Origin: a virus
Strand: one strand, 5' to 3'
DNA length: 22,667 nucleotides
Virus record (IMG/VR): IMGVR_UViG_3300045738_001537
Location: 1-22,667 of that record
The position numbers and the translations under genes are program-made. The notes under the pieces were generated by a model. That model did not search any database and was not told the origin of the DNA. It saw only the letters and a list, made by a program, of their open reading frames with translations. Below, in pieces: positions 2,688 through 17,500 of the stretch; positions within the stretch are counted from its first letter, which is position 1, and every line of letters begins with the position of its first letter.

Positions 2688-3809
2688 ATGGACGAGCCTG
2701 AATACAATTCGCTAACAGAGGAACATAAGCGAAAAGCTTTGGACGAATGGAATAGCCGCCCGGAGAGTCCTCCGTCACAACAAGAAATTATAAACGCCAC
2801 AGGGTTCAAGAGTCCTGATGGGACCATTCCTGATGGGAGGACTAAATTTGGGAGGGCGCTTATGAGTTTTATGGCTAGCAGGCAATGCAAACCTAAAGGG
2901 GCTCATGAATACAGAATCAAAGGACCCGTTGATCTTTCGGAAGAACAGAGAGAATATATAAAAAGTAATAATAATTATATGAGCGCATTCGAAATGGCTA
3001 AGATACTATTCGGAAATCATATAACACCGTTAAGTAGGGAAACCATTACTATAAACGAATATTTGGCTTCCGTTGGGATAGAAGGTGGTTCCCGTAGGCA
3101 AAGGGAGGCTTATAGGGCGGAACATAGAACGGAATATAGGTCTCCGAAAACTTTCGATAAGGTCCTGTCAAGATATAATAAATATTTTTATTTAAATCCT
3201 TTCGATAAGGAATCCATGCTTTCGAAGGATAAAAAAGGTATCGATACCTTGATGAACTATATGAACACTTACAGATTTGTTCATCAAATCAACACCTATA
3301 ATTCCCAAACGGATAGAGAGCTGTTCGAAAGCAGTTTCGTAAGGTACACCTACAACAAGGTTGACCTTACTCAGGAAGAGGTGGACCAGTATATCGTTAT
3401 GTGCATAGAGGTTGTTATAGCGTCGAACATTCAGACGAGAGTAGAGAGGCTGCAAAACATGTTGGACGACACAGCTGACGATACAGACGGAAGAAGAATA
3501 TCCATGGGGTTGGTTGAAGCTATAAGCTCTAGGCAATCTGAATATAATCAATGTGTTAATAGACAACAGAAATTACTCGAAAGTCTAAAGGAAAAAAGAA
3601 GCGCCAGACTCAGCAAACAAATAAAAGAAAACGCAAGCATACTCAACTTGGTTGAATTATGGAAAGATGAAGAGAGTAGGGGAAAGCTCATCAAACTAGC
3701 GGAATTAAGAAAAAAGTCCTTAAAGAAAGAAATAGAAAATCTATCTACTATGGACGAAGTAAAATCAAAAGTATTAGGCCTTTCGGAAGAAGAGGTGCTA
3801 AATGGTTAA
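2688..3809 (+). CDS. Helix-turn-helix/coiled-coil protein, candidate small terminase or packaging factor
   Basis: The product is 373 aa and belongs to no family I can name firmly. The N-terminal 60 residues carry a PSQQEIINATG segment like a DNA-binding helix pair. Around residues 84-130, LSEEQREYIKSNNNYMSAFE followed by a MAKILF helix and TITINEYLASVG resembles a helix-turn-helix with the pattern EQ..yI..n...ms..EiAk.lF. The second half is charged and helical (QSEYNQCVNRQQKLLESLKE onward), with heptad-like spacing. The gene lies two bases after the sigma gene and is followed by an ERCC4 nuclease and the large terminase. Small terminases usually sit just before the large subunit and combine a helix-turn-helix with a coiled-coil oligomer domain, but they are normally under 200 aa, so this remains a candidate only. 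Confidence 0.5.
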   Translation: MDEPEYNSLTEEHKRKALDEWNSRPESPPSQQEIINATGFKSPDGTIPDGRTKFGRALMSFMASRQCKPKGAHEYRIKGPVDLSEEQREYIKSNNNYMSAFEMAKILFGNHITPLSRETITINEYLASVGIEGGSRRQREAYRAEHRTEYRSPKTFDKVLSRYNKYFYLNPFDKESMLSKDKKGIDTLMNYMNTYRFVHQINTYNSQTDRELFESSFVRYTYNKVDLTQEEVDQYIVMCIEVVIASNIQTRVERLQNMLDDTADDTDGRRISMGLVEAISSRQSEYNQCVNRQQKLLESLKEKRSARLSKQIKENASILNLVELWKDEESRGKLIKLAELRKKSLKKEIENLSTMDEVKSKVLGLSEEEVLNG

Positions 3810-4743
3810 TTGTAAAATATGCGAAAAAGAGTTCGGGGAAGACAGGCAGCTTCACGCTCACCTAAAAGCTCATAAATTGAGAATGGCAGGATATTACCAA
3901 AAGCATTTCCCAAGGAAGGATCTATATACAAAGGAAATTATAAAATTCAAAAACAAGAATTATTACTTCTCTAATGATTTCAATTCAAGAATAAATATGA
4001 AAAAATGGCTAAAGGATCAACCGATCGAAAAAGCCAAAGAATATACTAAAAAAATACTTACCAATAGGGCGGAGAGAAAAAATCTGGAATACACGCCAAG
4101 TCAAGTAGAGCTAAGAACGATAATGAGCCCCCCAATCCAATATTTTAATGAATTGTTTGGGGATTACTATTCCGTATGTGAAGAGATGGGTTTAAAAAAT
4201 AGGTTCATAAGCTACCCCAAGGAAAATAGTTTCTCTATAGTTGATTACTCCAATCAAAAAAATTTAGAAATACTAGTGGACACCAGAGAGCAATTTCCGC
4301 TTAAGTTGGATTTTCCATTCCAGATTAAAACATTAAAATTCGGAGACTATACTTTAAGCGATAGAGAAGTATGCTGCGACTGCTACATAGAAAGAAAATC
4401 AATAAAAGATTTCGTGGGGACTTTAAGTGGTGGATTAGAAAGATTTAAAAGGGAAATAGAAAGAGCCCTCGAAAACGAAGCCTATCTCGTAGTTTTAGTA
4501 GAGACCCAAATAAGTAAGTGCATGGCGTTTGACAAGCTTCCTTACGTTAGCAAAAAAATAAAAGCCACTCCGGAGTACATATTTAGGAATGTAAGGGATA
4601 TTTGCCAACAATACGACCATCTTCAGTTTTTGTTTGTAGACGGGAGAAAAGAAGCCGTAAGGGTTATGAAGAAAATACTTTTTTGCGGATGTCTATATAA
4701 AGATTACGACCTACAACTTTCTTACGATTTAAAAATTCTTTAA
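3802..4743 (+). CDS. C2H2 zinc finger plus ERCC4/XPF-type nuclease
   Basis: The product is 313 aa. Residues 4-24 form a textbook C2H2 finger: Cys4, Cys7, Phe11, Leu17, His20, His24. A basic helical linker follows, with a segment (about 92-135) containing TPSQVELRTIMSPPIQYFNE. Residues about 157-300 are an ERCC4 nuclease domain: VDTREQ (Asp160, Arg162), GDY at 181-183 and IERKSIKDF with Glu197, Arg198, Lys199 and Asp203, i.e. the GDYx(n)ERKx3D catalytic signature. No helicase domain is present. XPF-type nucleases cut branched or flap DNA next to a junction. Placed directly before the large terminase, it could trim branches before packaging, as T4 endonuclease VII does by a different fold; that is inference. 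It overlaps the preceding gene in ATGGTTAA, with AGAGG a few bases upstream. Confidence 0.85.
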   Translation: MVNCKICEKEFGEDRQLHAHLKAHKLRMAGYYQKHFPRKDLYTKEIIKFKNKNYYFSNDFNSRINMKKWLKDQPIEKAKEYTKKILTNRAERKNLEYTPSQVELRTIMSPPIQYFNELFGDYYSVCEEMGLKNRFISYPKENSFSIVDYSNQKNLEILVDTREQFPLKLDFPFQIKTLKFGDYTLSDREVCCDCYIERKSIKDFVGTLSGGLERFKREIERALENEAYLVVLVETQISKCMAFDKLPYVSKKIKATPEYIFRNVRDICQQYDHLQFLFVDGRKEAVRVMKKILFCGCLYKDYDLQLSYDLKIL

Positions 4744-4746
4744 CAA

Positions 4747-6570
4747 ATGTGGTTCTGCCCTGATAAATACAACATACCGATACATAAAGTCAACCAGCAG
4801 ATGTCCGAATTGAAGGGCGAGCTGGAAGACGAACAAGCCAAGATTAGTTTGGCTAAATTCCTTAGGGCTAATTTAGGAATAACCACAGAACTTGTTTCAG
4901 GGATAAAGCTAGCTCATTACCAAGAAATAACTTTGAAAGGTTTTTTCAATAGAAACTTTAGCATGTGTGTTTGGGGACGAGGATGCGGAAAAACTTTCAT
5001 AGCGGCTGTATACTGTTTCCTACAGTGTATATTTGAACCCGGCACAAAAATACTAATAGCTGGACCAACATTTAGAACAGCAAGATTCATATTCAATAAT
5101 TTAGAAAACTTGGTAGATACAAAAGGCGCACAATTATTAGCTCAAGCTTTCGGAGCTAAGTCAAAACGAAACGATCAATACGAATGGAAAATAAACGGAG
5201 GAAGTATAACCGCTATACCATTAAGTGGGGAAAAAATAAGGGGATTTAGAGCCAATATTTTGGTACTTGACGAATTCATGCTTTTACCGGAAGAAATAAT
5301 AAGAAATGTCCTAATGCCTTTCTTGGTAGCTCCACAAGACATTGCCGAAAGGATAAAAATTAGGGAATTGGAAGATGAGCTTATATCTAACGGTTCAATG
5401 AAGGAGGAGGACAGAATCAAATTCGGAAACAATTCAAAAATGATAGCCCTTTCGTCGGCTTCCTACACTTTTGAAAATTTATATAAGGTATATAAAGAAT
5501 GGATGGCGAAAATATACTCCAGAGAATCTGGAGACTCAAAGTATTTCATTTCGCAATTAGGCTATGAAGCCTTGCCGGAAGAAATGATAGACAAAACAAT
5601 TATAGACGAAGCCCAGTCTGACACCTCCTCATTGTCGTCTTTCCAAAGGGAGTATTGCGCCATGTTTACGGACGGCAGTGATAGCTATTTTAGCGCCAAA
5701 AAAATGCATGAATGTACGGTACCGGATGGGGAGGAACCAAGCATGAGGATAATAGGAGATAAAGGTAGCGAATATATTCTAGCTATTGACCCTAGTTTTA
5801 GCAACAGCCCTACGTCTGATTATTTCGCTATGTCAGTTATGGAAATCGATAACGAAGCGAAACAAGGGACTTTGGTTCATTGTTATGCGGTAGCTGGAGG
5901 AGATCTTAGGGATCATATAGATTATCTTTTTTACTTAGTCAAAAATTTTAATATTATAATGATAATAATTGATAATGCTGGTTATCAATTTTTAGATAGC
6001 GCGAACGAGTCTGAAATGTTTCTCAAGGACAACATTAATTTGAAATTTTTTGATTTCGACACCGATAAGGATGGGGAAGAATACGATAAGGAATTAAAGA
6101 GAGCCAGAAGGAATTACAATCTACAAGATAAAAGAATATGCATTAAGCAGCTTTTCTCCACTAGTTTCATAAGAAAAGCCAACGAACAATTACAAGCGGA
6201 CATAGACCATAGAAAAATATGGTTCGCTTCCAGAATAACTGCTGACGGTTCCATATTCAATAAAGTCTCAGTACAAAGAGTACCATTAAAAATGACAAAA
6301 CACGAAACAATATTAGATTTAATAGAGTTTCAAGACGATTTCGTTTACCAAACAAAAAAACAATGCTCCCTTATAGAAGTGAAAAGCACGTCTAAGGGGA
6401 CTCAAAGTTTCGATTTACCCCAACATTTAAGAAGGAGTACGTCGCCAAGTAGAGCCAGAAAAGATAATTATACCACCTTAATGTTAGGAAATTGGGCAAT
6501 TAAAAGGTATCATGACATGATGAATATAAAAAATGAATCTGAGACTACTTTTGCTCCAATATTGATTTAA
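4747..6570 (+). CDS. terL: Terminase large subunit
   Basis: The product is 607 aa, the motor and nuclease for packaging DNA into the prohead through the portal. The N-terminal ATPase shows Walker A GRGCGKT at residues 77-83 (Lys82), Walker B ILVLDE with Asp175 and Glu176, and the SSAS coupling motif at 236-239. The C-terminal RNase H-like nuclease shows its first acidic residue Asp348 in AIDPSF, a second at Asp409 in IIIDNAG and a likely third at Asp524 in HETILDL. All expected motifs are present and in order, so the protein should be active. The start is three bases past the nuclease gene stop and lacks a clear Shine-Dalgarno site, suggesting coupling. The portal gene follows after a 52-base gap. 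Confidence 0.95.
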   Translation: MWFCPDKYNIPIHKVNQQMSELKGELEDEQAKISLAKFLRANLGITTELVSGIKLAHYQEITLKGFFNRNFSMCVWGRGCGKTFIAAVYCFLQCIFEPGTKILIAGPTFRTARFIFNNLENLVDTKGAQLLAQAFGAKSKRNDQYEWKINGGSITAIPLSGEKIRGFRANILVLDEFMLLPEEIIRNVLMPFLVAPQDIAERIKIRELEDELISNGSMKEEDRIKFGNNSKMIALSSASYTFENLYKVYKEWMAKIYSRESGDSKYFISQLGYEALPEEMIDKTIIDEAQSDTSSLSSFQREYCAMFTDGSDSYFSAKKMHECTVPDGEEPSMRIIGDKGSEYILAIDPSFSNSPTSDYFAMSVMEIDNEAKQGTLVHCYAVAGGDLRDHIDYLFYLVKNFNIIMIIIDNAGYQFLDSANESEMFLKDNINLKFFDFDTDKDGEEYDKELKRARRNYNLQDKRICIKQLFSTSFIRKANEQLQADIDHRKIWFASRITADGSIFNKVSVQRVPLKMTKHETILDLIEFQDDFVYQTKKQCSLIEVKSTSKGTQSFDLPQHLRRSTSPSRARKDNYTTLMLGNWAIKRYHDMMNIKNESETTFAPILI

Positions 6571-6603
6571 TAAACAAAATATAGGGTTAATATAACTTTA
6601 AAC

Positions 6604-6610
6604 GTGTAAT
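6604..6610 (+). promoter_or_regulatory. Putative promoter element GTGTAAT for the portal/FtsZ genes
   Basis: GTGTAATTTTAG lies in the 52-base gap after the terminase gene and ends 13 bases before the ATG at 6623. No Shine-Dalgarno site is visible. TGTAAT as a -10 box would give a leader of about five bases. Confidence 0.5.
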
Positions 6611-6622
6611 TTTAGTTACGAT

Positions 6623-8569
6623 ATGGCAGTCTCAAAAAAGAAACAAGTTGACAATTCGATAACGCCATTAATGGCGGCTTACGGGGGGAAGGAATCTCTT
6701 GCTGTTCAGGCTACCAGAACGAGAAGAAATAAATCCGGAAGTATTGAAAGAACGGACCGTTTCCAAAATATCAATGACGGATTGGTGCCATTTAAATATA
6801 CGACAAGCGGTAGTTATAATACCAGCAATTTGGATGTTAGGGACGCGGTTGTTTTATGTCAAAAGGCTTATTATAATTTTTCTATATTCAGAAACACTAT
6901 AGATCTGATGACAGAATTTTCCGTCAGTGCTCTTTATTTCACCGGAGGGAGCAAGAAATCTAAAGGTTTTTTTGATGCGTTTTTCAAAAAAATTAATATT
7001 AGTTCTCTTTTAGATAGATTCTTTCGGGAGTATTATAGATCTGGAAACGTTTTTATTTATCGTTTTGACGCTGTTATAACTCCCGCAGATATAGTTAAAA
7101 TATCTCAAACATTTGGAGCTGACGATTATTTAAAAGAATCTGATAAAATAATGATACCATCTAGGTATTGCATTTTGAATCCTGCCGACATTCAATTAGG
7201 GGGTAATATATCTTTTGTTTCCGGTAAGTACTATAAACTTCTTACGGACTACGAATTGGAAAGGTTGAGGGATCCTAGGACGGAAGAAGATTTGGAAGTT
7301 TTAGATAACCTTCCTTCCGAGATCAGAAAAAAAATAAAAGAGCCTAAAAATTCATCAATAGTATTGCCATTGAATTCCGATAAAATAACGGCTGTATTTT
7401 ACAAGAAGCAAGACTACGAACCATTTGCTGTTCCAATGGGGTATCCAGTTTTAGAAGATATCAATTGGAAACAAGAGATGAAAAAGATGGACATGGCTAT
7501 AACGAGGACCACCCAACAAGTTGTTCTTCTCGTCACCATGGGAACAGATCCAGATAGAGGTGGAGTTAATCAAAAAAATCTAGAAGCCATGAGAACCTTG
7601 TTTGAAAACCAATCTGTTGGGAGGGTTCTTATAGCTGATTACACTACCAAGGCTGAATTTGTAGTTCCCAATATCGCAAGTATCCTTGACCCCAAGAAAT
7701 ACGAGGTAGTCAACAGAGATATACAGTTGGGGTTAAATAACATATTGATAAGTGGAGACGAAAAATTTGCCAACGCTCAGATTAAAACCCAAGTTTTTGT
7801 AGAAAGACTTAAGCAGGGAAGGGATATTTTCATAAGCGATTTCTTGTTACCGGAAATAAAGAGAATATCAAAATCATTAGGTTTTAGAAATTTTCCAATT
7901 CCTCATTTTACAGAAATAGAACTGAAGGATGATAATACCTATTCCAGAGTTTATACAAGACTGATAGAATTAGGAATATTGACACCAGAAGAAGGGATAG
8001 AAGCTATCAATACTGGTAGGCTTCCGACAAATGAAGAATCATTAGAAAGCCAAGAAGACTATAAGAAATTAAGAAATAAAGGTTTCTATGAGCCAATAAT
8101 GGGTGGCCCGAGCACCCAAAAACAAATGGCGAAAGAGAAAGAAAAAAATCAACCCGTAGTTTCCCCAGTTAACCCTAATGAATCTCAAACAGGTAGGCCG
8201 TCTGGAACAAAAGGGATCCCTCAAGAAACTAAAAAAGTAACACCTATAGGTGGATCAACACAATTTAGTCTAACCAAAATAAAAGATAGTCTAATCCAAG
8301 CGCAAGAACTGGTTCCGGAAATAGAGTGCTTCTTAAGGAAGATGCACAAAAAAAGAAAACTAAGCAAACAGCAAAAAGAAGTCGCTAGTGAAATAGCGTC
8401 AATCATTATAGCTAACGAGAACCCTAAAGATTGGAGTTCAAAGGTAAACGAGTACTGTAGTAACCCTGTAGACACAGATAAAGAAAGAATAGATGAAATA
8501 AGAGAAATAGCTTTCGAGCATCAGATAGATGATTACTTAGCTTCGATTTTATACAACAGCAAGGCATAA
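6623..8569 (+). CDS. Portal protein
   Basis: The product is 648 aa, the twelve-subunit ring at one capsid vertex through which DNA enters and to which the tail attaches. The portal pattern is visible: a helical wing (FRNTIDLMTEFSVSALYFTG), a segment with YYRSGNVFIYRFDA, a beta part with LNPADIQLGG, a long helix pair (MKKMDMAITRTTQQVVLLVT), then a C-terminal polar, Pro/Gln-rich stretch (about residues 500-560) and a final helical domain. Length is in the usual range. The position directly after the large terminase and before the prohead protease is the normal place for a portal gene. No single catalytic motif exists for this family, so the call rests on overall pattern and context. It ends four bases before the FtsZ-like gene. 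Confidence 0.85.
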   Translation: MAVSKKKQVDNSITPLMAAYGGKESLAVQATRTRRNKSGSIERTDRFQNINDGLVPFKYTTSGSYNTSNLDVRDAVVLCQKAYYNFSIFRNTIDLMTEFSVSALYFTGGSKKSKGFFDAFFKKINISSLLDRFFREYYRSGNVFIYRFDAVITPADIVKISQTFGADDYLKESDKIMIPSRYCILNPADIQLGGNISFVSGKYYKLLTDYELERLRDPRTEEDLEVLDNLPSEIRKKIKEPKNSSIVLPLNSDKITAVFYKKQDYEPFAVPMGYPVLEDINWKQEMKKMDMAITRTTQQVVLLVTMGTDPDRGGVNQKNLEAMRTLFENQSVGRVLIADYTTKAEFVVPNIASILDPKKYEVVNRDIQLGLNNILISGDEKFANAQIKTQVFVERLKQGRDIFISDFLLPEIKRISKSLGFRNFPIPHFTEIELKDDNTYSRVYTRLIELGILTPEEGIEAINTGRLPTNEESLESQEDYKKLRNKGFYEPIMGGPSTQKQMAKEKEKNQPVVSPVNPNESQTGRPSGTKGIPQETKKVTPIGGSTQFSLTKIKDSLIQAQELVPEIECFLRKMHKKRKLSKQQKEVASEIASIIIANENPKDWSSKVNEYCSNPVDTDKERIDEIREIAFEHQIDDYLASILYNSKA

Positions 8570-8572
8570 ATT

Positions 8573-9709
8573 ATGAGTGAAAATGTAGATATAGGCCAAT
8601 ACGTATCAGGGGCAGACATATCCTTACCGGATATTCCGATGCCGGAACCAGTAGAGGAAGAAAAAAAAGTAGTGAACGACGAAGTTGAAGTTGCTTACAA
8701 TTTTTGCTTTATAGGGTCGGGACAAGGAGGTTCCAGATTAGCGGAAACTTTTCACGGATTAGGTTATAGGAAGGTATGCGCTTTAAATACCGCAAAACAA
8801 GATCTGAACACTATCAAATTGGAAAATAAGCTTTGCATAGGGGACGGAGGGGCAGGAAAAGACCCCGAAGTAGCGAGAAAAGTTTTCGAGTCTAAAAAGG
8901 AAGATGTTTTGGATTTTATGAGATATTCTTTTGGCGAAAATTTTGATAGGATTTTTATCTGCGTTGGGGCTGGTGGGGGGACAGGAGCAGGAACGCTTGC
9001 TCCATTAGTGAGAACTTCAAAAGATCTTCAGGAAACCCTTGGTATCGAGAATAATAAAGTTGGGGTTATCGTAGCCTTACCCAAGAACTCCGAAGGTAAA
9101 AGGGTAAACGCTAACGCTTATGAGTCATTAAAAGAAATTTATAAATTGGTTGAGTCCGGTGACGTTTCTCCGTTGATAATAGTCGACAACGAAAGAATTA
9201 GTAAACTATACCCCGGTTTGGTTGTGTCGAGCTTCTGGCAGACGGCGAATAGGAGTATGGCCGGTTTGTTCCATCTATTTAATTTGACAGCAGCCAAAGA
9301 CAGTACTTATACGTCTTTTGATTCCAAGGATTATTTGAGCATACTGGACGCTGGGTTAATGGTATTTGGAGCTGCTCCAGTTAAAGATTGGAAAGATCCA
9401 GTGAGCATATCTAGATCCGTTAGAGACAACCTTAAGGGAAATATCTTGTCTGGAGGTATAGATTTGGGATCAGGGACATGTGCAGGAGTTGTTATTGTAG
9501 GAGGGAAAGAGGCTCTAGACAACGTGCCCCAATCTAATTTAGATCAGGCTTATGCTCAATTATCAAGGATGCTGAAACCTAATAGCACAGTTCACAGGGG
9601 TATATATAGTGGGGACAAAGAAGGGTTAACTGTCTATAGTTGTATAGGGGGATTGGCCGAACCTAAAGAGAAGCTGGAAGAGCTTGAAAAATTAGGAGAT
9701 CTAACTTAA
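8573..9709 (+). CDS. FtsZ/tubulin-superfamily GTPase
   Basis: The product is 378 aa. After an acidic, Pro-rich extension of about 42 residues come FtsZ landmarks in order: IGSGQGGSRL (glycine loop T1, residues 47-56), ALNTAKQDL (T2-like), GDGGAGKDPEVARK (T3-like), GAGGGTGAGT at 132-141 (the tubulin/FtsZ signature loop T4), a VGVIVALP strand, and an FDSKD segment with Asp250 and Asp253 spaced like the catalytic acids of the FtsZ T7 loop (NxDxxD). Both nucleotide-binding and hydrolysis residues therefore look intact, so it may polymerise. There is no FtsA/ZipA-binding C-terminal tail, so it is unlikely to be a simple captured cell-division gene. Phage tubulins such as PhuZ position or treadmill capsids, but this one sits between portal and prohead protease. 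AAGG at 8561-8564 is a plausible Shine-Dalgarno site. Confidence 0.9.
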   Translation: MSENVDIGQYVSGADISLPDIPMPEPVEEEKKVVNDEVEVAYNFCFIGSGQGGSRLAETFHGLGYRKVCALNTAKQDLNTIKLENKLCIGDGGAGKDPEVARKVFESKKEDVLDFMRYSFGENFDRIFICVGAGGGTGAGTLAPLVRTSKDLQETLGIENNKVGVIVALPKNSEGKRVNANAYESLKEIYKLVESGDVSPLIIVDNERISKLYPGLVVSSFWQTANRSMAGLFHLFNLTAAKDSTYTSFDSKDYLSILDAGLMVFGAAPVKDWKDPVSISRSVRDNLKGNILSGGIDLGSGTCAGVVIVGGKEALDNVPQSNLDQAYAQLSRMLKPNSTVHRGIYSGDKEGLTVYSCIGGLAEPKEKLEELEKLGDLT

Positions 9710-9718
9710 CCAGAAATA

Positions 9719-9726
9719 GTGTATAA
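9719..9726 (+). promoter_or_regulatory. Putative promoter element GTGTATAA before the capsid-assembly genes
   Basis: GTGTATAATTCC begins ten bases after the FtsZ-like stop and ends 16 bases before the ATG at 9741. It combines the shared GTGTAT with TATAAT at 9722-9727, so an ordinary sigma-70 -10 box is also possible here. AGGAA at 9734-9738 is close to the start codon, with only two bases between. Confidence 0.5.
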
Positions 9727-9740
9727 TTCCTCTAGGAATA

Positions 9741-10205
9741 ATGAGGAAAAACACTGTAGAGATCGACCTCTTGGATGAATGGATTTTTCCGGAGAAGAAA
9801 GACCCCTATATAGAACTATCGGGCAAGATAGTTGACATTCTTCAAAAAAAAGTAAAAAAATACAATAAGCTCTACTCCCCGAACAGAACAAACATAAAAC
9901 AGCTTAAGCAGGCTTTCGTCGCTGGGGCCTCAGGCGAAAATCTTAAGGATCGGGAATTGATTGAATCAGGATTCTCTAGGGTCAAAAGCTTTTTGAACGG
10001 AAAAAAACTTGAATTCAAAAAAGAAAATTTCGCTATTCATCAAAACGGAAATTCAAAAGAGTTCGAGATAACATACGCAAGCCCTAAGGATCCGTGTTTA
10101 GAGAAAGAGAACGAAACGGAAGAGCATAATTTGTGTGACTACCAAGTAAACAGCATAGACGAACTATATCTTGAAGATTACAAAAGGAACAATATCTATT
10201 ATTAA
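9741..10205 (+). CDS. Hypothetical protein, 154 aa
   Basis: I do not recognise this protein. It starts with an acidic/hydrophobic segment (TVEIDLLDEWIFPEKKDPYI), continues with a basic helix (KIVDILQKKVKKYNKLY) and a segment with QAFVAGASGE, and ends in an acidic tail rich in Glu and Asn with Cys118 and Cys131. There is no membrane segment and no enzyme motif. It lies between the FtsZ-like gene and the prohead protease, so a capsid-assembly or FtsZ-partner role is possible by position only. It has its own upstream promoter-like element and ends ten bases before the preferred protease start. Confidence 0.75.
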   Translation: MRKNTVEIDLLDEWIFPEKKDPYIELSGKIVDILQKKVKKYNKLYSPNRTNIKQLKQAFVAGASGENLKDRELIESGFSRVKSFLNGKKLEFKKENFAIHQNGNSKEFEITYASPKDPCLEKENETEEHNLCDYQVNSIDELYLEDYKRNNIYY

Positions 10206-10215
10206 AAAAGGAAAA

Positions 10216-11760
10216 ATGAAAGACTTTAAATATAAAACCACCTTCAGCTCCTCTATCAGGCCGATGGTCTCGGAAGAAAGAGACAAACACTTGGCGCTAG
10301 CTTCATTGGTGGATGTGGGAAATTTTTTACCAGACATCGACACAGAGAAAAATATCGACCTGCTTCCTATAGCTTTCAACGCGTTCGTGGTAAATAGGGT
10401 AAACAGGAATGGGGACGTCATAAATACGGAAACTGCGTTGGCAGCATATAAATCTTTTAAGAATAAGCCGATTAACATAGAACATAACAGAGACAAAGTC
10501 TTAGGAACAGTACTAACCGCCGGTTTTTCTAAATTTGGTTCTGACGAGCCAATGACCGAAGACGAAGTTAGAGGAATGACTGAGCCATTTAACGTAACGC
10601 TTGGGGGAGTCCTGTGGAGGGTGGTTAATGAGGAATTAGCGAATATAATTGAAAATTCAAGCGATCCCACCAGCGAGGATTATATGAAAATCAGCGCTAG
10701 TTGGGAATTAGGATTTGAAGATTACAACATAGCCGTAATGGAAAATGAAGAGGAAAAGAATATAGAAAATGCCTTGGAAATAATTTCCGCAGAGAAAGAG
10801 GTCGATGAATTATCGAAATACCTTAAATCAGAAGGAGGAAAAGGAAAAATAGAAGAAAGAGGCTTTGTGTATAGACAAGTTATTGGGGAGGTCGTGCCTT
10901 TGGGTATTGGACTTACCGAGGCTCCCGCTGCTGACGTCAAAGGAATCGTTACGGAAAGAACCCTAGAGGAGTGCGGTATTCTTAAGGAAGATAAAGAAAT
11001 AGGAGCTTCCGAAATAGAAGAAAACTCTTCCCAAAAGGAAAATAATGTTGTAAGTAAAAATACACAAGAGGGAATCATTATGATGAAACTGACAAATATT
11101 AACGATATTACAGATGAATCCTTGAAGACTGTTTCTGCCTCTGCTGTTACGGATTTTATTCAAGAAGAGCTCAAGCGGGCTTCCGAAAACTTCTCTGAAG
11201 AAAAGACTAAGGTAGACACGGAATTAGCCTCAACCAAGGAAGAGTTAGATACCGTTTCTTCTGCGAGCCAAAAACTCAAAGAGGAAATGGACAAAATCAA
11301 GGCTGCTCTTGAGCAGCTCGAGAAGGAGAAGTCCGAAAAAATCAAGGAAGAGAAATTTAACCAACGCATGGCTTTCATGGATGATACTTACGTTTTGTCC
11401 GACGATGACCGTAAGGTGGTTGCTTCTCAGGTTGGTGATTTGGGTGACGAAGCTTTTGAAGATTACCAAAAGGAAATGTCAATTCTTCTCTCCTCCAAGA
11501 ATAAAGAGGAAATCGAGAAGCAGGCCAAAGAAGCAAAAGCTACTGAAGAGGCCGAGCAAGAAAAACCTAAGGAAGAGGCTGAAGCTTCTGAGGAAACTCG
11601 AGAAGAGGATCCAAAAGAGGTCGTTGAACAGATCGTGGAACAGGCCAAGGAAGAGCCGGAAGAAGTTCCGGTTTCAGTTACGGCGTCTGACCCCTCTGAT
11701 ACAATTTACGATAAGTATAGAAAAGCTTTTGATATCGAGAATTTCGAAATCAAACTATAA
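10216..11760 (+). CDS. Prohead protease-scaffold fusion
   Basis: The product is 514 aa from the ATG at 10216, chosen over an upstream in-frame ATG at 10171 because AAAAGGA (10206-10212) lies at the right distance and the longer form would overlap the preceding gene. Residues about 30-250 look like a phage prohead serine protease: NAFVVNRVNRNGDVI, KPINIEHNRDKVLGTV with candidate catalytic His90, ISASWELGF with candidate Ser160 or Ser162, and GLTEAPAADVKGI. From about residue 289 the sequence becomes a long Lys/Glu coiled coil (SASQKLKEEMDKIKAALEQL) with a Glu-rich linker and a short C-terminal end, typical of a scaffold. The protease would cut the scaffold out during maturation. Codon choice changes at the join, and a Met-Met with an upstream GAGG suggests separate scaffold synthesis. 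Confidence 0.75.
   Translation: MKDFKYKTTFSSSIRPMVSEERDKHLALASLVDVGNFLPDIDTEKNIDLLPIAFNAFVVNRVNRNGDVINTETALAAYKSFKNKPINIEHNRDKVLGTVLTAGFSKFGSDEPMTEDEVRGMTEPFNVTLGGVLWRVVNEELANIIENSSDPTSEDYMKISASWELGFEDYNIAVMENEEEKNIENALEIISAEKEVDELSKYLKSEGGKGKIEERGFVYRQVIGEVVPLGIGLTEAPAADVKGIVTERTLEECGILKEDKEIGASEIEENSSQKENNVVSKNTQEGIIMMKLTNINDITDESLKTVSASAVTDFIQEELKRASENFSEEKTKVDTELASTKEELDTVSSASQKLKEEMDKIKAALEQLEKEKSEKIKEEKFNQRMAFMDDTYVLSDDDRKVVASQVGDLGDEAFEDYQKEMSILLSSKNKEEIEKQAKEAKATEEAEQEKPKEEAEASEETREEDPKEVVEQIVEQAKEEPEEVPVSVTASDPSDTIYDKYRKAFDIENFEIKL
11080..11760 (+). CDS. Candidate internally started scaffold protein (226 aa, same frame)
   Basis: In the frame of the protease gene, ATGATG at 11080-11085 is preceded by AGAGGGA (11067-11073) at about Shine-Dalgarno distance. 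The reading frame from here encodes only the coiled-coil scaffold part. Upstream codons favour AGA, AGG and ATA; downstream codons shift towards CGC, CGT, ATC, AAG and GCT, as in the decoration and capsid genes. This is what would be expected if the scaffold part is made in larger amounts than the protease. The arrangement resembles lambda C/Nu3, where the scaffold starts inside the protease gene. The internal start is inference from sequence only. Confidence 0.55.
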   Translation: MMKLTNINDITDESLKTVSASAVTDFIQEELKRASENFSEEKTKVDTELASTKEELDTVSSASQKLKEEMDKIKAALEQLEKEKSEKIKEEKFNQRMAFMDDTYVLSDDDRKVVASQVGDLGDEAFEDYQKEMSILLSSKNKEEIEKQAKEAKATEEAEQEKPKEEAEASEETREEDPKEVVEQIVEQAKEEPEEVPVSVTASDPSDTIYDKYRKAFDIENFEIKL

Positions 11761-11764
11761 CAAC

Positions 11765-11769
11765 AGGAG
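11765..11769 (+). promoter_or_regulatory. Strong Shine-Dalgarno site of the decoration-like gene
   Basis: AGGAG lies nine bases before the ATG at 11779, in a short A-rich gap. It contrasts with the many genes in this window that have no such site and fits a highly made virion protein. Confidence 0.75.
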
Positions 11770-11778
11770 AAATAAATT

Positions 11779-12342
11779 ATGGCTACAACATGTGACTTAA
11801 GACCCTTTAGGGACTATTCAGAACATAACGTAATTAATCTCTTTGCGTGGAGTGGAGCCGTGCCAGTCAAGAAAGGAACAGTCGTTAAGGTTGTTCCCGG
11901 TAGTGAAGGGCATGGTGGCTGGAAAGCAACTGACGAATTATCAATGCTAGGTGATGTGGGCGCTGCTTACACCAATACTGTTTCAGAACGGTATGGTGTG
12001 GTTGCTCAAGTTACTGCGGCAGTTAACGGTGATGAAGATGATGCTATCGGCATGTTGCTCTACGATGTCAAAGAGACTGACGAAAATGGGGAGAAGCTAA
12101 TCTTCAACCCGAGGAAGGCTGCCGAATTACAGGTTGCCTTGAGCGGACAAGCGGTTCCGATCGTTTCGAGAGGCGTATTCCTTTACAAGGGCGTTGACGG
12201 AACTCCGGCCGCTGGTGGAAAAGCGTATCTTGGAGCTGGCGGATTAGTTAGCGCTACAGCTGGATCAGCACCAAACGTGGTGGGGTCTTTCTTGGGCGCC
12301 AAGGATGCCGACAGTAACGTGTTGATTAAGCTCGAACTGTAA
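11779..12342 (+). CDS. Capsid decoration/stabilisation-like protein
   Basis: The product is 187 aa, mostly predicted beta strands and Gly/Ala-rich loops: SGAVPVKKGTVVKVVPG near residues 25-41, VSERYGVVAQVTAAV near 69-83, and a C-terminal GSAPNVVGSFLGAKDADSNV followed by LIKLEL. There is no membrane segment or catalytic motif. A small beta-rich protein between scaffold and major capsid genes, with a strong AGGAG site and the same codon style as the capsid, is the usual profile of a head decoration or head-stabilising protein (lambda gpD position). The internal motifs do not allow a firm family name, so a different minor head protein remains possible. Confidence 0.65.
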   Translation: MATTCDLRPFRDYSEHNVINLFAWSGAVPVKKGTVVKVVPGSEGHGGWKATDELSMLGDVGAAYTNTVSERYGVVAQVTAAVNGDEDDAIGMLLYDVKETDENGEKLIFNPRKAAELQVALSGQAVPIVSRGVFLYKGVDGTPAAGGKAYLGAGGLVSATAGSAPNVVGSFLGAKDADSNVLIKLEL

Positions 12343-12353
12343 TATTTAACTAT

Positions 12354-12358
12354 AGGAG
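12354..12358 (+). promoter_or_regulatory. Strong Shine-Dalgarno site of the major capsid gene
   Basis: AGGAG lies eight bases before the ATG at 12367, in a 24-base gap after the decoration-like gene. The gap holds no promoter-like GTGTAA element, so the two genes probably share a transcript. Confidence 0.75.
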
Positions 12359-12366
12359 ATAAAATT

Positions 12367-13485
12367 ATGAATTTGAAACTTAAAAACACACCAGAACAAA
12401 TTGAACTTATCAAAGCCATGGGCTCTAAGGATAGAGCCGTTGCTATAGAGGCTCAGGAAGCTTTCGCGGCTTTTCTAGGCCCTGTAGTGAGACAGGTTTT
12501 GCAACAGGCAGGTACAACTGGGGCGATCTATAGCGACGTTCCTTTTGATGAGGACGACTCACCGAGTTATCCTTTGGATCTGTATTATGACGAGGGAGAC
12601 AACTATGTCCAGACTTGGTCTCAGTCAGTCGCTGGCGGTCTTCCGACCAGTGCTGTCGAGGGTATGTCAGAACTGAAGATCTCTACTTATAGGATCGACA
12701 GTGCTGTCAGTTTCCTCGCCAAGTATGCCCGTCGCGGTCGCTTGGATGTCGTTAGCAAGGGTGTCGAGAGAATGGCTCAGGAAGTTCTTATCAAACAAGA
12801 ACGTAACGGATGGGCGGTTATCCTTAAGGCTTTGGCCGAGGGTACAACCAGCTCTTTGAGACATGTCGAAGTTGGCACTACAGCCAATGAGTTCCAATTG
12901 CATGACCTCAACAAACTTGTGACCAGAGGTCGCAGGATTAATGAGTCGTTTGCAAACGGTACCCCGGACTCTGCTTATAGCAAGGGTGTTACGGACATGT
13001 ATGTGAGTCCTGAGATCATGCAAAACGTGAGAGCGTTTGCTTATCAGCCGATGAACACACGGTCCGCTGTTGGAACTGCCGATAAGGATTCCACTAGTAT
13101 TCCGTTGCCTGACAATATCCGTTCAGACATCTATAACGCTGCTGGTACCCAAGAAATATACGGTATCAACCTCGTTGAGATGAACGAATTCGGAGTGAGT
13201 AAGAAGTATAACGATTTGTTCGATACTTTCGCTACCCACACAGATATTAACGGTCCCGGTGGATCGGACTTTGCTACCGGTACAGACGAGATTCTTGTTG
13301 GTATTGACAACAGCAAGGGGGCGTTTATTCGTCCGTTGGCTCAGAACGCCGATAGCGGATCTACGTTCAATGCTTCTCCCGATGATCAATGGAATGCCAG
13401 AGCCGAGAAGATCGGTTTCTACGGTGCTCTTGAAGAGGGTCGGGTTTGTATTGACGCCCGTGCGGTTGTTGGTATTACCATCTAA
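12367..13485 (+). CDS. Major capsid protein (HK97-fold type)
   Basis: The product is 372 aa, the main shell subunit. A helical N-terminal arm (about residues 1-45, NTPEQIELIKAMGSKDRAVA) is followed by a mixed alpha/beta body: a strand-rich segment with SELKISTYRIDSAVSFLAKY, a long spine-like helix (GVERMAQEVLIKQERNGWAV), a segment with VTDMYVSPEIMQNVRAF, and a C-terminal GFYGALEEGRVCIDARAVVG strand pair. Length and layout fit a small HK97-fold capsid protein without added domains. Placement after protease, scaffold and decoration-like genes, the strong Shine-Dalgarno site, Arg codons CGT/CGC and the strong terminator directly after it all agree with the most abundant virion protein. Confidence 0.88.
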   Translation: MNLKLKNTPEQIELIKAMGSKDRAVAIEAQEAFAAFLGPVVRQVLQQAGTTGAIYSDVPFDEDDSPSYPLDLYYDEGDNYVQTWSQSVAGGLPTSAVEGMSELKISTYRIDSAVSFLAKYARRGRLDVVSKGVERMAQEVLIKQERNGWAVILKALAEGTTSSLRHVEVGTTANEFQLHDLNKLVTRGRRINESFANGTPDSAYSKGVTDMYVSPEIMQNVRAFAYQPMNTRSAVGTADKDSTSIPLPDNIRSDIYNAAGTQEIYGINLVEMNEFGVSKKYNDLFDTFATHTDINGPGGSDFATGTDEILVGIDNSKGAFIRPLAQNADSGSTFNASPDDQWNARAEKIGFYGALEEGRVCIDARAVVGITI

Positions 13486-13508
13486 TAAAGCTCGTTAAGA
13501 GATTATAC

Positions 13509-13539
13509 GAAAGTCCGGCTTCGGTCGGACTTTTTTTTT
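13509..13539 (+). terminator. Strong intrinsic terminator after the capsid gene
   Basis: AAGTCCGGC and GTCGGACTT pair as a nine-base stem (one G-T pair) closed by a C(TTCG)G tetraloop, followed by a run of T to 13539. This is an especially stable hairpin. It lies 23 bases after the capsid stop; the flanking A and T runs might let it act in both directions. Confidence 0.93.
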
Positions 13540-13562
13540 ATTTCCCATTGAATTTTCCCCCC

Positions 13563-13569
13563 GTGTAAG
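13563..13569 (+). promoter_or_regulatory. Putative promoter element GTGTAAG
   Basis: GTGTAAGCGATAATGTAA follows the capsid terminator and ends well before the ATG at 13593. It shares 16 of 18 bases with the minus-strand element at 595-578. This is the only one of the seven genes that also has a Shine-Dalgarno-like AAAGGA (13579-13584). Confidence 0.55.
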
Positions 13570-13592
13570 CGATAATGTAAAGGAACAAGGAT

Positions 13593-14024
13593 ATGAAAAA
13601 TAAACCTAAGACCACGGCGAAAAGGACTTCGGCAAAAAAAAAGACTATAGCTAAGAGAAAGACTAGCTCCGGAAAGAAATTGAAGAACATGTCTCAAACT
13701 CACGGAAAAAATGAGGAAGCCGTGTTTGAACCCAGAACATTAGATCAAATTTGGGGGGACACAGGATTGGGGAAATATAAGACGTTCGACGAGACTATTT
13801 ATAAGGATAGGCTGGACAATATGGCCAAAACAGACCTTCAAGCTCACGCTACTAGAGTGGGATTAGTGCCTATTGATAACAGATCGACACTGACGCAAAG
13901 GCTAATGAGGGAGTTTAGGAAGCATATAAACTCATTCAAACCCACAAACATAAAAATCAGTAAATCTATAGCTAAAGATTCATTACCTCTGGGAGTGAGA
14001 AAAACCTTGGACGAAGGTAAGTAA
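13593..14024 (+). CDS. Basic SAP/HeH-like protein, 143 aa
   Basis: The first 35 residues are extremely Lys/Arg-rich (KTTAKRTSAKKKTIAKRKTS), like a nucleic-acid-binding tail. Residues about 78-112 (MAKTDLQAHATRVGLVPIDN and the following RSTLTQRLMREF) resemble a SAP or HeH helix-extended-helix DNA-binding unit: short helix, turn with a Gly-Leu, then a second helix ending in Leu. No enzyme motif is seen. It is probably a DNA-binding or head-completion protein. It is insulated: a terminator and promoter-like element precede it and a second terminator follows, so it is likely made from its own single-gene transcript. The SAP-like match is weak and by eye. Confidence 0.65.
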   Translation: MKNKPKTTAKRTSAKKKTIAKRKTSSGKKLKNMSQTHGKNEEAVFEPRTLDQIWGDTGLGKYKTFDETIYKDRLDNMAKTDLQAHATRVGLVPIDNRSTLTQRLMREFRKHINSFKPTNIKISKSIAKDSLPLGVRKTLDEGK

Positions 14025-14049
14025 AATTCACCTTTTATATTGTCTTTAT

Positions 14050-14078
14050 AAAGCGCCATTGTGGCGCTTTTTCTTTTT
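14050..14078 (+). terminator. Intrinsic terminator
   Basis: AAAGCGCCA (14050-14058) and TGGCGCTTT (14062-14070) form a perfect nine-base stem with a TTG loop, followed by TTCTTTTT. It ends the transcript of the basic SAP-like gene. Confidence 0.92.
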
Positions 14079-14106
14079 ATATTTATGCTATATTTTCTGC
14101 GCTAAG

Positions 14107-14113
14107 GTGTAAT
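14107..14113 (+). promoter_or_regulatory. Putative promoter element GTGTAAT before the tail-fibre operon
   Basis: GTGTAATTCCATGTAATATG holds TGTAAT twice and ends at the start codon at 14124. It lies downstream of the second terminator, so a new promoter is needed here. No Shine-Dalgarno site is present; the predicted leader would be only a few bases. Confidence 0.5.
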
Positions 14114-14123
14114 TCCATGTAAT

Positions 14124-14501
14124 ATGGCAACTAGCTACGATTTTACCGTTACACAAGGTTCAGAGCTTGATGTTCAGCTTAAAGTTACCGACGAGAATGG
14201 GGTGGCTCTAAATCTCAGTGGTTTTGACGTTAGGGGTTCCGTAAAATATAAATACGGTGATACGGGTTCTTTGATTGATTTGGATCCAGTTATAGCTACG
14301 GGAACAGATGGTGACGGTTATGCAAGTGGTTTAATTGACGTTTTTTTAAGTGGGGTACAAACTAAAACATTACCAGTAACTGACGCTCTATACGATGTGG
14401 AAAGGTTTCATTCTGGGTTAGGGGAAGCGTCTCCTAGCGTTATAAAACTAATGAAAGGTAAATTTAGCATCTATCCCGAAGTAACAACAGCGACATCTTA
14501 A
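14124..14501 (+). CDS. Small beta-sandwich-like virion protein, 125 aa
   Basis: The protein starts ATSYDFTVTQGSELDVQLKV and alternates short strands: NLSGFDVRGSVKYKYG, GYASGLIDVFLSG, LPVTDALYDVERF and a final LMKGKFSIYPEVTT. The pattern (early strand, L.GF.vrg.vky, then T..LP...a.YDVE, then ..kLm.GkfsI.PEVT) is one I associate with small phage structural proteins encoded near tail-fibre genes, probably an Ig-like fold that may join the fibre or baseplate. I cannot name the family firmly. It has its own promoter-like element and its stop overlaps the Shine-Dalgarno site of the fibre gene, so the two are probably co-expressed. Confidence 0.7.
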   Translation: MATSYDFTVTQGSELDVQLKVTDENGVALNLSGFDVRGSVKYKYGDTGSLIDLDPVIATGTDGDGYASGLIDVFLSGVQTKTLPVTDALYDVERFHSGLGEASPSVIKLMKGKFSIYPEVTTATS

Positions 14502-14511
14502 GGAATAGATT

Positions 14512-17500
14512 ATGCCGGTATCAGTTAATGTAACAGTTCCATCGAAAGTCACGACTTCGGTTTTCGCAGAGTCTACTAAGACCAGTTCGAGCATTACTAT
14601 TGGCAGACAAGGACCTCCCGGTGCAGGGTTTATAAATGTAGACACTAACTCTAAATGGGGCGTCACCAAGTCCGTTAGACCAACTTCCTCAGGGGTATAC
14701 GATTTAGGAACAGCTTATTACCCGTTTAATGATTTTCATTCTCAAAACGGAAATTTCTATGGAGATTTAAATATACAAGGTAACGTTAGTATAACTGGAA
14801 GTCTTGGTTTAAGTGGTAATTTTATTATAGGGGACGATACCACGGATAGTATAACAACTAGAGGAGACTTGTTTGTGGAGGATGATGCGTTTTTCTCCGA
14901 TAACGTTAATATAACCGGTAATTTAACAACCAGAAACGTTTACCCTGAGACAACTACTAATTACAATTTAGGTTCAGCTACAAAAAAATGGGATAATATT
15001 TACGCCAAAACAGTTCATATTGATGGAAGCACTTTGGTGATGGGTACAGAAGGAGCCCAAGTAAAAGTAGTTAGCAACAGGCTTCAATTTCAAGGCAACA
15101 CAGCAAGTGATGGTGCATATTTTGTAGGCGATACGTATATTGACGCGGGAACGCTTTTTACTCAAAAAGCTTTCGGCCCACAATTTAAAATACTTAATAC
15201 TAATTCCACAAATAGGTATGAATTTGAATTAGATGATAATGGGCACCTTAACATCACGGGAAATTTAAATGGAAATGTAAAGTTTGCAAACGATATCCTA
15301 CCCGCATCTAATGGAGCAAATATAGGAGACGGTTCTTCAAAGTGGAATTATTTGTATTCAGTTTCTGGATACATAGATAAACTAGCAGTAGGCACCTCGG
15401 ATACCACTAAGACGCTCACGGTAGGAGGAGATACAAAAATTTTTGGTGACGTCGACATATACGACGAAAATAATACGACCAACAAAATAGTTGCAATATA
15501 CGACAATATTGACGAAGGAAGAATAGACATAAAAAATGCAAACTCCACGACGATAAGGTTGGCGAGCAATTCCAATAGTTATTTTTTAAATGGCAACATA
15601 GGTATCGGTGAAGCCAACCCATCAGTAAAATTAGACATAAATTCAAACGACGCAATAAAGATTCCCGTAGGAACAACCTTGCAGAGGCCAGCAACTCCAG
15701 CGGACGGAATGGTCAGGCTAAATTCAACGGAATGCATAAATGGAATAGGGAAATACGAAGGTTATAATGACGGTCAATGGAGATCATTGGAAGGGGTCGT
15801 AGATCTCGATTGTGATACCTACGTGACCACTGAGAAAACATCGGATGACGATAAGTTATACTTTTATACTTCCGGAATAGAAAGAGCTACCGTAAGCAAG
15901 CAGGGAGATGTTTATATAGCAAACGACCTTACTGTATCTGGAGACTTAAGCGTAAGCGGTAATTTTAATTTAGGAGACTCGACAACCGACAAAATAACAA
16001 CTCAGGGTGATTTGTTTGTTTTGGATGATGCATTTTTTGGAGATTCAGTAACTATAACTGGGGATCTTACATCGAGGAATGTTTATCCGGCAGCTAGCGG
16101 TCTATATAATTTAGGAAGCGAGAGTCTAAAGTGGGGCCAAGTTTATGCGAAAACAGGTAATTTTGATGGAGGCACCATCAATCTAGGAGTGGACGGAGCA
16201 AGAATTGTTACCTCCTCTAATGGAAATATAAATATGGTTGGAGAAGATGGGGTGACTTCAGAAGGTCTCAGGCCCAGTCCAAGCATAAAAGGAAATGTAT
16301 ACGTAGAGACAGGTGCGTATATTACCGGCAGCCTAAACGTAGCAGAAGACGCAACTATAAGCGGAAGTATTTACACGGACGGAACCGTAACAGCTTCGAC
16401 GCCAACTCAAAACGGCCATTTAACGACGAAGTCTTATGTGGATTCCGCAGATAGTACTTTAACGACTAATCTAGCGGCAACGGGAAGTAACCTTGAAGCG
16501 CAGATAACTAACAACGATGCCGATTTGTCAGCCCTGCAAACGGCTACTGGAAGTCTACAGACTCAGGTCACAAGTAATGACGGAGATATAACTGACTTAA
16601 ACACTAAGGTTACAGATTTGAGCGGCGACGCTGTGTTTACGACTGGGGATCAAACTATAGCAGGCAACAAAACTTTTTCAGACGACGCAGTTTTTAGTAG
16701 CGGCGTAACGATATTAGGCGCTCTTGGAGTAAGTGGGAATTTCACATTAGGAGATAGCACAACAGACAGCATAACAACAAGAGGCGATTTATTTGTGGAA
16801 GACGACGCCGTATTTAGCGACGATATAACTGTTACCGGTAACGCGCGCTTCGTTGGCAACATTGGCATAGGTGTAGGGTCGGCGACCCCTAGCGCTCATT
16901 TAGAATTAGGCTCTGACGGAGGATCTGCAAGATATATAAGATATAAGGATACAGCCGGTTCCCCTACTAAATATAATTTCGAACTAGGAGTTCAAAGAGT
17001 CGACCAGTCTTGGTCGGTAACTCCCTCAACGGCTGCTGGAGGAAGCACGTTCAGTTCTCCTGCGTTAGTGGTGAAGAATACCGGAAATGTAGGTGTAGGT
17101 ACATCAAGTCCTACTAGAAAATTTCAAGTTGAGTCATCCAGTAATCAAATCAAGCTGACTGACACCGGCCAAAGCGGATCTAGTAATCGACACGCTATAT
17201 TTAATTTTAGTGATTCAAGCGACAATTCATTGGATATTCTTACAGCTTATACTGGGGGGACGGCTAACAAAATAACATTATCGCCAGCCGGTTCGGTAGC
17301 AATGACTTTGCTGCAAGGAGGTAAGGTTGGTATAGGAGTTGATGTTCCCACACAAACGCTTCATGTCGATGGTAATTTACGTTTAACAGGCGCGATATAC
17401 GATACAAATAATTCTGCCGGTACCAACGGTCAAATTTTAATATCTACTGGATCAGCTATAGATTGGAAATCTTTGAGTGAGATAACCGGTGTCGATGGAA

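Follow-up and report, generated by a model that had tools for sequence, protein, structure and literature searches.

The gene at positions 8573-9709 of the window (the whole stretch of DNA analysed here, 22,667 bases long, which is the full IMG/VR virus record IMGVR_UViG_3300045738_001537) was confirmed by sequence comparison and structural modelling to encode a tubulin/FtsZ-superfamily GTPase with an intact predicted active site. Its ATG starts 3 nt after the stop codon of the portal gene, and its product very probably forms GTP-dependent filaments in infected cells. The reading that we prefer, while giving it a little less than an even chance, is that a GTP-driven filament is made late in infection together with the heads and positions or transports proheads. 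The relevant features of the window are:

4747-6570, plus strand: terminase large subunit (PHROG terminase, E 1.3e-25; Pfam Terminase_6N, 6.5e-7)
6623-8569, plus strand: portal, the translationally coupled upstream partner of the tubulin (PHROG portal, E 7.3e-7)
8573-9709, plus strand: tubulin-superfamily GTPase, 378 amino acids, ATG start (Pfam, AlphaFold2, Foldseek)
8615-8644, plus strand: N-terminal short linear motif, residues 15-24, DISLPDIPMP (D15 and P24 invariant in 32 of 32 relatives)
8714-8734, plus strand: T1 nucleotide loop, residues 48-54, GSGQGGS (G48, G50, Q51, G52 and G53 invariant)
8846-8866, plus strand: T3 loop, residues 92-98, GGAGKDP (G92, G93, G95 and K96 invariant)
8966-8992, plus strand: T4 tubulin signature loop, residues 132-140, GAGGGTGAG (G135, G136, G138 and G140 invariant)
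9317-9331, plus strand: T7 synergy loop, residues 249-253, FDSKD (F249, D250 and D253 invariant)
9741-10205, plus strand: o9741, a conserved 154-amino-acid gene between the tubulin and the putative protease
10216-11760, plus strand: putative prohead protease fused to a coiled-coil scaffold (invariant H93 and S163/S165, A2 numbering)
12367-13485, plus strand: putative major capsid protein, MCP (position, size, conservation; 103 IMG/VR relatives)

The 378-residue protein matched the Pfam Tubulin family above its curated cut-off (E 5.4e-12) and gave one weak match in the PHROG library, to a family of unknown function. Invariance counts and the AlphaFold2 model were based on an alignment of 32 diverse tubulin relatives. 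The model was confident (pLDDT 87.1, pTM 0.86) and, when compared with the PDB by Foldseek, was closest to TubZ (TM 0.78, E 2e-24), followed by CetZ2 (0.72) and FtsZ (about 0.65). Profile searches gave the same order, with Bacillus cereus TubZ first (E 6e-22) and CetZ and FtsZ next. The initial annotation, made from the sequence alone, had claimed a signature loop and T7-loop acids; both are present, the loop at residues 132-141 (GAGGGTGAGT), and the catalytic acids D250 and D253 are kept in all 32 relatives. The tubulin GTPase domain that it had predicted was likewise recovered by fold prediction and structural search. Its wording 'FtsZ-like' is not quite exact, since fold and profile both rank TubZ first. 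FtsZ carries a C-terminal disordered linker and conserved peptide that are absent from the phage protein, which ends in a short helix (residues 365-374 in the model) directly after the last strand.

In a maximum-likelihood tree the phage tubulins form one family (support 99/99) whose sister is a pair of tubulins from Chloroflexota metagenome-assembled genomes (97/97 together), and FtsZ stands apart (100/100). Recent capture of a host FtsZ, which together with a lack of related phage loci would have counted against the annotation, was rejected on this tree. TubZ, phage G and PhuZ are placed only weakly because of their long branches; the plasmid TubZ sequences in particular are long-branched and split, with weakly supported forks. 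The two Chloroflexota proteins are the closest relatives outside the family (35% identity) and come from a class in which 2 of 298 genomes carry a TubZ-like gene. In one of them, the complete sequence L269, the tubulin lies directly behind a helix-turn-helix (HTH) gene and near an FtsK-like ATPase (L269:677-4110), in a stretch that also holds serine recombinases by our own reading and thus resembles an integrative element. The module in L269 and L270 looks, judging by gene content, like the tubulin-based partition module of such an element. The likely history is that phages took up such a TubZ-like gene from a mobile element long ago and that it later became independent of its DNA adaptor, with transfer presumably in that direction. 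The phage tubulin family is old. Its gene is evidently functional and constrained, since dN/dS is low, which indicates strong purifying selection: in the close pair L001-L002 the tubulin has a value of 0.022, lower than those of portal (0.028), terminase (0.041), protease (0.066) and MCP (0.090). Between relatives and the window itself, synonymous sites were saturated in tubulin, portal and terminase.

The neighbourhood of the gene is that of a head operon. On its 5' side, Pfam and PHROG matches identified genes for a PhoH-like protein, a sigma-like factor, an ERCC4 nuclease, the large terminase and the portal; on its 3' side follow the 154-amino-acid gene, the putative protease-scaffold, a small gene, the putative MCP and a very long tail-fibre-like ORF. 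This last ORF (14512-22665) exceeds 2718 amino acids, leaves the window and contains many repeated tail-fibre-like blocks. Near the other end, a 143-amino-acid protein encoded at 143-574 on the minus strand gave a below-cut-off match to a mechanosensitive channel beta domain (E 0.013); its gene adjoins phoH and is conserved in close relatives. The terminase is 24-30% identical to those of Bacillus phages including SPbeta (tblastn), which are distant relatives of this type. Relatives of the portal matched the PHROG portal family in 7 of 14 cases (best E 6.7e-9), and the portal profile gave a weak match to SPbeta YonE (E 0.0074). The sequences of terminase and portal together thus point weakly to SPbeta-type phages. 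The putative protease is without a Pfam or PHROG match; its low-confidence model shows a beta domain followed by a long helix, and its top Foldseek match, T4 gp21, is non-significant. Its likely identity as a prohead protease rests on the assemblin-like His/Ser pattern and on that gp21 match. For the putative MCP family, neither PHROGs nor the phage collection (E up to 0.01) gave a match, and the PDB gave nothing significant; some of its relatives lie on contigs of more than 140 kb. Occurrences of a T4-type late promoter (TATAAATA) were at about chance level, and none was accepted near the tubulin gene.

A single-sequence scan of IMG/VR yielded 46 tubulin loci and a profile scan found relatives on at least 358 contigs. 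Among 103 non-redundant loci, the distance from portal stop to tubulin start is between -28 and +12 nt in 73; since these loci were fetched mostly via the tubulin itself, that fraction describes where the tubulin is located and not how prevalent it is. The gene lies further downstream of the portal, with other genes between, in 16 loci, has no portal of the window's family nearby in 13, and begins the contig in 1. The order terminase-portal-tubulin-o9741-protease-o11779-MCP is kept in relatives down to about 55% tubulin identity. The survey of portal-tubulin synteny that the annotation had proposed thus found it to be widespread, with 16 loci to be added to the 73 directly coupled ones. Its description of a gene 'between portal and prohead protease' holds for the position directly behind the portal but not for adjacency to the protease, from which the 154-amino-acid gene separates it and whose identity is itself unproven. 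Linkage to head genes is not universal, because of the 13 portal-less loci, in which the tubulin is surrounded by glycosyltransferase, replication or other genes. Outside the clade, phages such as L032, L034, L036, L038, L205, L206, L217, L220 and others, some of them with large genomes, carry the tubulin (about 50-60% identity) among glycosyltransferase or replication genes or genes of no assigned function. In three of them the gene directly behind the tubulin (L034:8150-8611, L205:10679-11134 and L206:8388-8837) begins with a short amphipathic leader with an L-x-E-type ending, for example MSSIFKKQFERILIEQDD, which by our own reading looks like the capsid-targeting leaders of internal proteins of T4-type phages. 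Similar leaders were seen near the tubulin in L029, L035 and L036. No gene adjoining the tubulin was constant enough to qualify as a dedicated partner, and o9741 is not one because it also occurs in tubulin-less relatives.

The relation between the tubulin and the head was also examined on a tree of MCP and protease, built from 75 non-redundant loci that contain all three of portal, protease and MCP and came from tubulin-seeded and capsid-seeded scans. The tubulin is present in 50 of these and absent from 25; its distribution requires 4 changes (3 of them forced by well-supported branches) compared with 21 for shuffled labels. It has therefore been lost or gained about four times on the capsid-gene tree and retained through a deep clade. 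Because 25 non-redundant relatives with the same head lack it, the tubulin is not needed to build this head. Two tubulin-less relatives, L118 and L119, are nested beside the tubulin-bearing L053 and have a gap of 57-58 bp at the site, and L165 has a gap of 45 bp behind the portal. Searches of the whole records of tubulin-less relatives (34 records, several above 100 kb) gave no tubulin match, which is no proof of true absence because many of the records are fragments. Across the clade (L117-L191) the interval separating portal and o9741 is a highly variable slot: it is empty in L118, L119 and L165, at 45-58 bp, and elsewhere reaches over 8 kb with diverse gene content. In tubulin-less relatives it holds lysis-like genes (by our own reading small lipoproteins, holin-like and endolysin-like genes) and structural or fibre genes. 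Several tubulin-bearing relatives also have lipoprotein or fibre-like genes in the slot. Since the slot is variable, position behind the portal proves no head function by itself; a real link between tubulin and portal is nevertheless argued for by the place of the tubulin, which in most cases opens the slot at near-zero spacing. The annotation had taken placement as favouring a role in virion assembly: the placement among head genes is borne out, but what can be concluded from it is weakened by the 13 portal-less loci, the variable slot and the 25 tubulin-less relatives.

The N-terminal arm is a second distinguishing feature of the family. The acidic N-terminal extension described in the annotation is confirmed. 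Within its otherwise variable, acidic sequence lies a conserved motif with the pattern D-[IV]-[SE]-[LIVM]-P-[DE]-[ILM]-x-[MILV]-P and hydrophobic alternation. In the model the first 11 residues are disordered and the motif is modelled only moderately well. The motif is also kept in genomes where the tubulin is unlinked to the portal. It is absent, together with the whole extension, from the Chloroflexota sister L269 and from L230, a relative of phage G, both of which begin at the fold. The arm looks like a docking peptide gained by the phage tubulins. A likeness of the D-I-P core to the C-terminal peptide of FtsZ was considered and discarded, the core not being conserved across the family.

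Compared with known systems, the phage tubulin is most like plasmid TubZ, its best fold and profile match, with 24-28% identity over most of the protein; the TubZ reference loci were taken from environmental plasmids, leaving aside virulence-associated plasmids and a toxin-converting phage. In contrast to the TubZRC systems of Bacillus plasmids and phage-plasmids, it comes without TubR, tubC or the long C-terminal tail, carries the N-terminal motif instead, and has its gene among the head genes of uncultured tailed phages. No homologue of TubR of the plasmid or element type was found by phmmer in the viral ORFs of the fetched loci, and there was no direct-repeat array of the tubC iteron kind in window positions 3500-14500, so a TubRZC partition cassette was rejected. 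Directly upstream of tubZ the plasmid loci have an ORF of 103-138 amino acids, where the phage gene has the portal. L269 also differs, being a cellular mobile element with an HTH gene directly upstream and neither extension nor motif.

PhuZ of phages phiKZ and 201phi2-1 is likewise a phage-encoded tubulin, but a very remote one (phiKZ PhuZ, E 0.003; Noxifer PhuZ fold, TM 0.52); orthology was ruled out on these values, in agreement with the annotation, to which the T3 segment and the N-terminal extension had looked unlike PhuZ. In phiKZ, moreover, phuZ sits between gp38 and a phosphatase gene and not behind the portal. By treadmilling, PhuZ filaments bring capsids to the phage nucleus (PMC9067925). 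The protein is dispensable, and 24% of known chimalliviruses lack it (PMC11724907). A single-sequence phmmer search with phiKZ gp54 gave no match to a chimallin-like shell in the fetched loci, which are partial genomes, so the phage nucleus that goes with PhuZ may well not apply here. The gp138 protein of Bacillus phage G ('putative FtsZ-like') is of similar size and 27-29% identical, but belongs to a separate branch and lies among nucleotide-metabolism genes; the 175 kb IMG/VR record L230 carries a tubulin 66% identical to it. The best viral fold match, A0A6J5RW92 ('FtsZ Cell division GTPase', uncultured Caudovirales phage, BFVD), has 28% identity and differs in its length of 452 amino acids; it is probably a distant phage relative. 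A study of a hot spring lists protein clusters of the tubulin/FtsZ type among phage genes (PMC8597652). Searches of the open-access literature gave no description of a portal-coupled tubulin family.

These observations can be accommodated in the following model. The tubulin and the portal would be translated as a pair when the late genes are expressed, and tubulin subunits would stack head to tail, the T7 acids of one completing the GTPase site of the next, so that the filament would turn over. The gene probably descends from a TubZ-like gene that worked with a DNA adaptor on a mobile element; in its phage form, which has no detectable adaptor or centromere and a short C-terminus, it would have gained the acidic arm with its DISLPDIPMP-type peptide. 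This peptide may couple the filament to a late-phase cargo, most likely proheads or portal complexes, which would be moved to replicating phage DNA or clustered for packaging, as PhuZ does for capsids. The filament would be an efficiency factor and not an essential part, since relatives with the same head do without it. From what is shown, namely the fold, the active-site residues, the coupling to the portal gene, the constraint and the pattern of presence and absence, we infer polymerisation, dynamics, timing and cargo; the filament is well supported, the cargo presumed. The position among head genes may also reflect a slot that tolerates late genes, since the content of the slot varies among relatives.

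Alternative roles have to be weighed against this model. A TubZ-like filament might segregate or centre the phage DNA through an unrecognised adaptor, the head neighbourhood being incidental. TubZ is indeed the closest protein in fold and profile, the Chloroflexota sister lies directly behind an HTH gene in what is a tubR-tubZ layout, and some of the phage tubulins are found away from head genes; nevertheless, with neither a TubR homologue in the viral ORFs of the fetched loci nor an iteron array near the gene, with a short C-terminus in place of the long TubZ tail, and with the gene in a head operon and not in a partition operon of its own, we regard partition as unlikely. Slightly lower still we rate an organiser of the phage factory, acting early or throughout infection, whose gene entered a cargo-tolerant slot behind the portal. 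The range of that slot, from 45-58 bp to over 8 kb, would suit such a history, as would the presence of the tubulin at other loci in other phage lineages, but in 73 of the 89 loci that have the portal upstream, the tubulin comes first in the slot at near-zero spacing, and is steadier there than the other slot genes.

That the protein co-assembles with host FtsZ or titrates it, and so blocks septation, seems to us improbable. Blocking FtsZ is a known phage strategy (lambda Kil, T7 gp0.4), the protein belongs to the same superfamily, and it is 34% identical to Escherichia coli FtsZ over 148 residues. However, identity to FtsZ is only about 30%, over a stretch of about 150 residues, and the family branches deeply and separately; the invariant active-site and T7 residues would be needless for a mere poison, and with the C-terminal peptide of FtsZ the motif shares only the D-I-P core, which the family as a whole does not conserve. 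Least of all do we expect the tubulin fold to serve as a static scaffold in the virion or prohead: such a component could explain the near-zero spacing to the portal gene, but not why relatives with homologous portal, protease and MCP have no tubulin, nor why the GTPase site is conserved.

Our preferred reading thus remains a late filament that positions or transports proheads. To our knowledge, hardly any tubulin cytoskeletons built by phages are known besides those of PhuZ in nucleus-forming jumbo phages and of TubZ in a few phage-plasmids. Phage tubulins as such are therefore not new, but the portal-coupled lineage falls outside FtsZ, outside PhuZ and, as regards partner and centromere, outside TubZRC. 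A more far-reaching view, which we consider possible but rather doubtful, is that phages possess here another large cytoskeletal lineage, separate both from PhuZ and from TubZ partition of the plasmid type, whose N-terminal peptide attaches filaments straight to proheads or portals and thereby provides active capsid trafficking in widespread uncultured phages that have no phage nucleus. The similar head operons of L053, with the tubulin, and of L118 and L119, without it, offer a natural comparison for the benefit that a filament may bring. If the tubulin is tied to the portal in hundreds of uncultured contigs, assembly of particles under active spatial control would be common in ordinary tailed phages.
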